DNA from: Sulfurimonas sp.
GTDB lineage: Bacteria; Campylobacterota; Campylobacteria; Campylobacterales; Sulfurimonadaceae
DNA length: 64,000 nt
NCBI RefSeq assembly: GCF_028694605.1
Contig: NZ_JAQVKP010000001.1
Location: 124,001 to 188,000, forward strand
Direction of reading: 5' to 3'
The first letter of the stretch is position 1. Each line of letters begins with the position of its first letter. A program made the translations under genes and the position numbers. A model generated the notes under the pieces. It was not told where the DNA came from. It saw only the letters and a list, made by a program, of their open reading frames with translations, and did no database searches. Below, in pieces: positions 38,547-40,312 of the stretch.

Positions 38547-38612
38547 TTTTTTTTGTCTTTGTATAATTTATGCGATTATAGTGTAAGTTACATAAGAGTT
38601 AAATTTGAATAC

Positions 38613-38881
38613 ATTACCGCACCGACAAATAAACTTAACTTTTGATGATATAATTTTGTCCATAATCAAGGCAAATTTTTGAAGCCCTAGCCAAGGCTCG
38701 GGCAAAAAAATTTAACGCAGAGTATGGGCAAAAGTATATCACCCTGCGGGAAGCACGATAAGAGGCAATCTTAAGATATAAAAAGTTTTGAAGTGCAACA
38801 GGCACTCCTGCAACTTTTTATACCTCAATCTCACCTCTTCTCGTACTTTCAAAAGTTAAGTTTATTTGTCGGTGCGGTAAT
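38613..38881. repeat. 269-bp palindromic element with 33-bp perfect terminal inverted repeats
   Basis: The 368-bp gap between the ABC-F and beta-CASP genes contains this unit. Its first 33 bp (38613-38645) and last 33 bp (38849-38881) are exact reverse complements. Inside are a GCCCTAGCC-AA-GGCTCGGGC hairpin (about 38683-38702), a CGCAG/CTGCG hairpin (38716-38748), and a long imperfect stem with arms 38753-38786 and 38812-38846 whose inner 11 bp (TATAAAAAGTT) pair exactly. Several mismatches on the plus strand become G-U pairs on the minus strand. No frame of note lies inside. It looks like a MITE or a structured RNA locus. Confidence 0.7.
38649..38654 (+). promoter_or_regulatory. Perfect TATAAT inside the palindromic element
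   Basis: A consensus -10 box sits just inside the left terminal repeat and points toward the beta-CASP gene, 261 bp away. It could drive that gene with a structured leader, or a small RNA. Confidence 0.4.
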
Positions 38882-38914
38882 AATCGACCAGATTGAAAAA
38901 ACAAGGATGAAAGA

Positions 38915-40312
38915 ATGGCAACTGTTACATCATACGGAGCGGCGCAGACTGTTACGGGTTCGTGCCACTTAGTAAAAATCGATTCAATAAAAATTTTGAT
39001 TGATTGCGGTATGTTTCAAGGCAACGGCAATGAAGAGAGAAACTACGGGGCTTTTGAGTTTGACCCTTCAAAAGTCAACTATCTTGTCCTAACCCATGCG
39101 CATCTTGACCATATCGGAAGAGTGCCAAAGCTTATCAAAGATGGGTTTAATGGCAGGATAATTGCTACAAAAGCGACACATGATATAGCAAAAGTGATGC
39201 TGCTTGATAGTGCAAATATACTTCAAGAAGAGTATAAAACACTCCGCAGAAAGGCACGCAGACGCGGCGAAGAAGAGAGTATCTTAAAGCCGCTTTATAC
39301 AAAAGAGGATGTGGATAGAGTTTTTGAGAAAAAGTGGTGTACGCTGGAGTATTTTGAGGAGCATAAGTTAAAGCATCATATCAAGGTGACGCTGGCGAAT
39401 GCGGGACATATCATGGGAAGCGCTTTTGTGATTCTTGACTATCAGGAACAAAACAGACATAAGCGCATCATCTTTTCGGGTGATTTAGGCTCTCCTGAGA
39501 GGCTTATCATCGACAGTGCGGACAACATCGACCAAGCGGATGTTCTTTTTGTAGAGTCAACATACGGAGATCGTCAACATAAACCGCTTGAGCAGAGTGT
39601 TGCAGAGTTTAAAGAAGCCGTGCGCACTACACTACAGCAAAACGGCAATGTTATAATCCCGTCTTTCGCGCTTGAGAGGACGCAAGAGATACTTTGGCTG
39701 CTTCATGAGATGCACGATGATGGCGAGCTGCCAAAATGCCGTGTCTTTTTGGATAGCCCGCTTGCTATCAAAGCGACAAAACTATATAACCGTTTTCCTA
39801 TTCACTTGAGTGATACGCTTGAGTATGCGCCCGGAAGCGGGGGTGACCCATTCTCCTTTGCATGGCTTGAAACAACGACAACGCGAGACCAGTCTATGGC
39901 GATAAACAAAACAAAAGAGCGCTCTATAATCATCGCAGGAAGCGGAATGTGTAACGGCGGGCGCATTATGCATCACCTCAAACATAGACTTTGGAACACG
40001 AGAAATGCCGTGATATTTGTAGGGTATCAGGTTCATGGTACACTTGGACGCAGTATCGTTGACGGCGAAAAGATGATTAAGATTTATGGCGAAGAGATAG
40101 CTGTTAAAGCAAAAGTTTACACGATTAACGGTTTCTCCGCACATGCAGACCAAAAAGAGCTAATCGAGTGGATAAGACCTATTGGGGGACTGAAAAATAT
40201 CTACTTGATTCATGGAGAGATAGAGAAAATGGAAGTTTTTGCTTCTGAGATTCAAAATGAGCTTAAACAAGAAGTAAACATTGTTGAGTATGCAAAACCG
40301 ATAAAACTTTAG
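38915..40312 (+). CDS. Beta-CASP metallo-beta-lactamase-fold RNA-processing protein
   Basis: The 465-residue protein has the MBL motif HAHLDH at 61-66, further metal ligands in NAGHIMGSAF and FSGDLGS, a beta-CASP insert (VIIPSFALERTQEIL ... GSGMCNGGRIMHHL) and a C-terminal RMMBL segment (INGFSAHADQKEL, IYLIHGE). This is the CPSF73/YSH1-like class found in bacteria, usually predicted to be ribonucleases. It is distinct from RNase J, which is longer. The leader contains the palindromic element. The stop codon overlaps the 17-bp motif. Confidence 0.9.
   Translation: MATVTSYGAAQTVTGSCHLVKIDSIKILIDCGMFQGNGNEERNYGAFEFDPSKVNYLVLTHAHLDHIGRVPKLIKDGFNGRIIATKATHDIAKVMLLDSANILQEEYKTLRRKARRRGEEESILKPLYTKEDVDRVFEKKWCTLEYFEEHKLKHHIKVTLANAGHIMGSAFVILDYQEQNRHKRIIFSGDLGSPERLIIDSADNIDQADVLFVESTYGDRQHKPLEQSVAEFKEAVRTTLQQNGNVIIPSFALERTQEILWLLHEMHDDGELPKCRVFLDSPLAIKATKLYNRFPIHLSDTLEYAPGSGGDPFSFAWLETTTTRDQSMAINKTKERSIIIAGSGMCNGGRIMHHLKHRLWNTRNAVIFVGYQVHGTLGRSIVDGEKMIKIYGEEIAVKAKVYTINGFSAHADQKELIEWIRPIGGLKNIYLIHGEIEKMEVFASEIQNELKQEVNIVEYAKPIKL

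Follow-up and report, generated by a model that had tools for sequence, protein, structure and literature searches.

The ~270-bp inverted-repeat element of the window (the whole stretch of 64,000 nucleotides of Sulfurimonas sp. DNA that was analysed) is very probably a non-autonomous DNA transposon (MITE) moved by a transposase acting in trans. It is short and has no transposase gene, it carries terminal inverted repeats and a target duplication with an empty site in relatives, and its copies are dispersed; for two end types of the family, type II and TAGACTT, a partner insertion sequence (IS) with the same ends was also found, as in IS5-family-derived MITEs. A MITE had been one of the options named by the sequence-only reading, and the many copies, the empty site with its TA duplication and the end types matching insertion sequences all bear it out. 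The element family, with its cloverleaf fold in two phyla, is apparently undescribed so far: no prior description was found in the open-access literature, subscription papers being outside the scope of the search, and GGAACCTCTGA as literal text in the open-access literature returned unrelated papers only.

Structure of the window element

The 33-bp arms at 38613-38645 and 38849-38881 are perfect reverse complements, as the sequence-only reading had it, and once the target duplication is subtracted the element proper is 38614-38880. The strong internal structure that it described was confirmed, with a fold of -135.8 kcal/mol for the minus strand (z -16.5, 0 shuffles as good) and of -119.8 kcal/mol for the plus strand (z -14.9), and so were its three interior hairpins, which are P4, P3 and P2 of Table 1. 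The overall shape is a four-way junction, or cloverleaf, closed by the terminal stem and holding the three hairpins inside; 'sense' here means the minus strand of the window. The covariance model R1, which covers P3 and P4, matches at 38646-38750 with 106 bits. No ORF within the element reaches 80 aa, and the TATAAT noticed there is indeed present, at 38649-38654 within P4, but the other copies do not conserve it.

Table 1. Features of the element and its surroundings (positions in the window)
Feature	Position	Strand	Evidence
Left remainder of the split, predicted -10 region of the beta-CASP promoter: TTTGAATA; relatives TTTGAATATAAT	38604..38611	+	TTGAATATAAT conservation
Left copy of the TA target duplication, now CA	38612..38613		empty site in L232, L236, L239, L246
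Terminal inverted repeat, left arm TTACCGCACCGACAAATAAACTTAACTTTTGA (type I ends)	38614..38645		perfect complement of 38849-38880
Hairpin P4, conserved internal-loop motif ACTCTGCGTTA ... GCCTTGATTATG	38646..38741	-	covariance model, compensatory pairs
P3 mini-hairpin CCC-NNN-GGG, 9-nt CCCTGCGGG, junction centre	38742..38750
Hairpin P2, inverted homologue of P4; minus strand favoured by wobble pairs	38751..38848	-
Terminal inverted repeat, right arm	38849..38880		complement of left arm
Right copy of the TA target duplication	38881..38882		empty site in relatives
Beta-CASP metallo-hydrolase gene, downstream neighbour outside the element	38915..40312	+	Pfam PF10996, PF07521

Insertion into a predicted promoter

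Congeneric relatives share the divergent ABC-F and beta-CASP genes that flank the element (~90% identity over the gene in the nearest), and the spacer between them is 91-190 bp long in 17 of these relatives, where it lacks the element, against 368 bp in the window. Four congeners (L232, L236, L239 and L246) have the empty site GAATATAATC, and at the same site the window reads GAATA[CA]-TTACCG...CGGTAA-[TA]ATC; the difference amounts to a TA target duplication whose left copy has undergone one T to C change. The insertion target, TATAAT, is a -10-like box, and 19 of 26 relatives have TTGAATATAAT with no more than one mismatch; insertion at the TA thus split the beta-CASP promoter at its predicted -10 box. 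The other option, that the element regulates the beta-CASP gene, as an RNA or as a structured leader, has in its favour the strong fold placed 33 bp upstream of the start codon, but it is highly improbable, given that the equivalent spacer is free of the element in the 17 congeners, that other copies adjoin many different and unrelated genes without orientation bias, and that the only Rfam matches to the window element, at E up to 10, are far under the gathering threshold.

Distribution and genomic setting

Covariance model matches were found in 90 of the 299 genomes of the order and in 29 of its 81 genera (Sulfurimonas, Sulfurovum and kin). An exact-pattern scan of genome contigs gave 82 loci, nearly all from Campylobacterota (Sulfurimonas, Sulfurovum, Sulfurospirillum, Nitratifractor and MAGs), and also matched three species of Microbulbifer (Gammaproteobacteria), the elements of which have the same architecture on folding. 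A search at class level around one Microbulbifer genome was positive in 36 of 369 genomes, many of them multi-copy; many of the positive genomes in the class-level and order searches are fragmented or MAGs, and the Microbulbifer records carry no MAG label. The Microbulbifer element had no match in plasmids, and 2.9 million viral contigs held a single match.

Of 91 elements, none is located within an ORF; 47 lie between tandem genes (25 sense, 22 antisense), 28 between divergent and 13 between convergent genes. This intergenic setting fits a tolerated mobile element and not a regulator of a single gene. Three other roles were considered and rejected: that of a cis-regulatory leader, as the position upstream of orthologous genes is not conserved; that of a terminator, with only 13 convergent against 28 divergent sites; and phage or plasmid carriage, as the window element was unmatched in both sets.

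A BLAST-type search of the own genome found a single full copy, a 177-bp one on C18 that lacks P2, a solo end of 45 bp and a palindrome of 53 bp consisting of ends only. The covariance model of P3 and P4 raised the total to 15 copies that bear the core, with ends of three kinds, and relatives hold many more. Twelve of these 15 copies end in GGGCACCTCTAAAAA, quite unlike the window ends, and 3 of the 12 cleanly lack P2; another (L092, G000:C16:25915-26018) has the ends TACCAAATCCG and a flanking TTA repeat.

Shortened and irregular forms were seen as well. A type II copy without P2 lies at G000:C13:122055-122156, ~2 kb ahead of the window start. Solo type II ends of ~14-33 bp (GGGCACCTCTAAAAA; TTAAGGGCACCTCTAAAAA) with no partner end occur on C4, C13, C15, C17, C21 and C25 of the own genome (loci L085, L194-L198, L201 and L202) and are possibly deletion or excision scars, and one spacer (L004 / L093, G000:C8:123527-123588) holds adjacent solo ends of two different types. 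Type I palindromes of 53-63 bp made of ends only are found at G000:C13:287519-287571, G209:C1:1844674-1844731, G329:C197:7821-7876 and G311:C96:11805-11867. At the other extreme, L037 (G027:C245) has ~36 bp extra within P2 and a total of 305 bp. The complete genome G209 has many copies with the same slightly unequal end pair, TATTACCGTACCAAT / TATTACCGCACCAAC, which suggests recent spread.

A conserved, covarying core

The members of the family share a common plan of a ~33-bp terminal stem, a ~100-nt hairpin, CCC-NNN-GGG and a ~95-nt hairpin. Over 98 elements from Campylobacterota and Microbulbifer and ~20 further gammaproteobacterial ones, the medians are 33-34 for the terminal arm, 97-100 for P2, 9 for P3, 93-95 for P4 and 267-271 for the total. 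Covariation among homologues, proposed as a check by the sequence-only reading, is extensive: with 27 type I elements aligned by MAFFT, in the fitting of which structure was not used, 63 of 109 consensus pairs are compensatory (both sides changed and pairing kept). Of the 38 pairs of the covariance model that matches at P4, 25 are compensatory. In P3 and P4, taken over 13 elements drawn from several end types, pairing holds in 95.5% of cells, where shuffling gives 75.4 and sliding at most 46; the covariation score is 0.55, against 0.18 when shuffled and at most 0.14 when slid. The P4 model also matches P2 on its opposite strand, and the ~200-nt non-coding core is therefore an inverted pair of homologous hairpins around CCC-NNN-GGG. 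The stems also contain conserved mismatches, one P4 pair being T-G in 90 of the 91 rows, and the letters of the internal loop are conserved.

Ends, partner insertion sequences and the core tree

The type I ends (TTACCGCACC) are flanked by a TA duplication, and 4-bp repeats flank 18 of 41 copies with type II ends, where 4.1 would be expected. Two insertion sequences with type II ends were found: L212, of 1014 bp, with ends GGGCATCTCTAAAAAC, TAAA duplicated and a PF01609 transposase; and L302, of ~1254 bp, from a genome of the Microbulbifer-centred class-level search, with ends GGGCACCTCTATTTAGT, ATAA duplicated and a 369-aa IS5-family transposase, again of PF01609, scoring 243 bits against a cut-off of 140. 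A third, L207, of 910 bp, has the ends TAGACTTCTTGCATAACCC, which match the TAGACTT end type, and a PF01609 transposase; the transposase genes of L207 and L212 are degraded and score under the curated cut-off. In ten genomes, the majority rich in type I ends, no IS with the window's type I ends was found within two mismatches, and among the pairs listed in the search for type I end pairs all span ~56-280 bp and none is IS-sized. The transposase search covered PF01609 and found no gene of that family in the own genome. We infer that the transposase is encoded elsewhere, that it would belong to the IS5 superfamily, the presumed class for the type I ends of the window too, and that it would move the element in trans by recognising the outer ~15-20 bp of the terminal repeats.

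In the tree built from 108 cores in four end groups, type I ends form one branch (100/99) inside the type II ('CACCTCT') cores, and TAGACTT ends form another (100/97), also among type II cores. The end group changes 8 times on this tree, against 45 in shuffles, and the 8 is an overcount; the true changes are fewer, because L076 (ends AGGTCACCTCTAAT), L025 and L109 belong to type II and were scored otherwise. The Sulfurimonas cores L092 and L026 group with gammaproteobacterial cores on long branches, and their placement is unsure. Judging from the tree, the ends seem to be inherited with the core, yet to have been replaced several times in one core lineage, because the type I and TAGACTT branches nest among type II cores; the core lineage would thus have swapped its terminal repeats, and presumably the transposase with them. 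It could be argued instead that the core is an independent mobile unit that enters short palindromic MITEs at their centre, since it is always placed exactly between the arms, since ends-only palindromes occur and since one core tree carries several end types. We consider this improbable: the tight clustering of end types on the core tree implies that changes of ends are rare, and the ends-only palindromes are equally explicable as deletions.

Why the fold persists

The sequence-only reading had taken the mismatches of the long internal stem, mostly G-U on the minus strand, as a hint of selection on a minus-strand RNA. In the window this holds for P2, with 6 G-T against 1 A-C, plus G-A, on the minus strand, but not for P4, which has 2 G-T and 1 A-C and mainly pyrimidine mismatches on the same strand. 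Counted over the family at mismatches in mostly Watson-Crick pairs, P2 has 48 G-T against 8 A-C in type I and 22 against 9 in type II, even when the pairs derive from the opposite strand; P4 of type I has a weak opposite lean (9 against 19), and the terminal arms have no wobble bias (87 against 98). These cells count sequences and not independent events, and by pairs P2 has 17 against 7 (p 0.06). Because P2 leans towards G-T while P4 leans the opposite way, each hairpin seems to favour the strand running inwards from its own end, a pattern that is suggestive rather than proven and that would fit RNA entering from either side, or else DNA in single-stranded form. The G-U bias of P2 thus stands, but with P4 weakly opposite it does not indicate a single minus-strand RNA.

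The reading that we favour, tentatively, is that the conserved core acts in RNA read inwards. A single strand running inwards from either end may fold at once into a hairpin, and that strand is most likely RNA whose transcription runs from neighbouring genes into the element; so folded, it might insulate or process read-through, which would make insertions tolerable and keep the core. Placed behind it, and rather unlikely, is the view that this is an ordinary MITE with a functionless core, the inner stems of which seem conserved merely through template-switch correction of palindromes. The terminal arms do stay complementary without strand preference, and copies without P2 or without both hairpins persist, including palindromes of 53-79 bp; however, such correction would erase the mismatches and internal-loop letters conserved in the stems, and neither the constancy of arm lengths over two phyla nor the wobble asymmetry of P2 agrees with it. 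Lower still we place the view that the fold acts as DNA, in a cruciform or single-stranded hairpin that joins both ends for the transposase or the replication machinery. The end-to-end fold, in which one stem has both termini at its base, the symmetry of the inverted halves and the fixed lengths speak for this, but IS5-type transposases are thought to act on duplex ends, and the strand-specific wobble of P2 fits RNA at least as well. Joining the favoured role in inward-read RNA to the history of the ends would give a single selfish core, defined by shape rather than by ends, that has lasted in at least two phyla through changes of transposase, its hairpins acting in whatever outside RNA enters; such a fold-defined IS parasite is a speculative picture, and we hold it to be doubtful as a whole.

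Relation to known elements and significance

Like the present family, IS5-family-derived MITEs are short, non-coding and multi-copy, lie at AT-rich intergenic sites and have terminal repeats matching IS5 elements and a 4-bp or TA duplication; the present family differs from them in its fixed-size cloverleaf core, common to many end types and two phyla, and in its long perfect arms, which extend beyond the IS ends. Correia elements of Neisseria, ERIC, YPAL and other palindromic intergenic repeats are likewise dispersed, intergenic and foldable; to our knowledge, Correia, ERIC and YPAL have other lengths and ends and lack a four-way junction centred on CCC-NNN-GGG. REPINs are paired short hairpins and are not known to carry long terminal repeats or a target duplication. 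With their RAYT transposases, they resemble the present family in being non-autonomous hairpin elements mobilised in trans (PMC3116915). QMITE1 and QMITE2 of Coxiella burnetii are also structured gammaproteobacterial MITEs with strongly folding transcripts, but by their description they are set apart by different sizes (~400 bp, and a 113-145 bp core with 23-29 bp ends) and duplications (7-9 bp in QMITE2), and no relatives of QMITE1 were reported in other genomes (PMC5896051).

The family is an unannotated repeat in many marine and subsurface sulfur-bacterial genomes, and it can split promoters, as in the window. MITEs are usually seen as decayed insertion sequences with a disposable interior and one transposase. 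A covarying cloverleaf interior with fixed dimensions, found in two phyla and between several end types, suggests that here it is the interior that matters and the partner that is exchangeable. The family would therefore be test material for how non-coding elements survive and for how MITEs may outlive their parent element.
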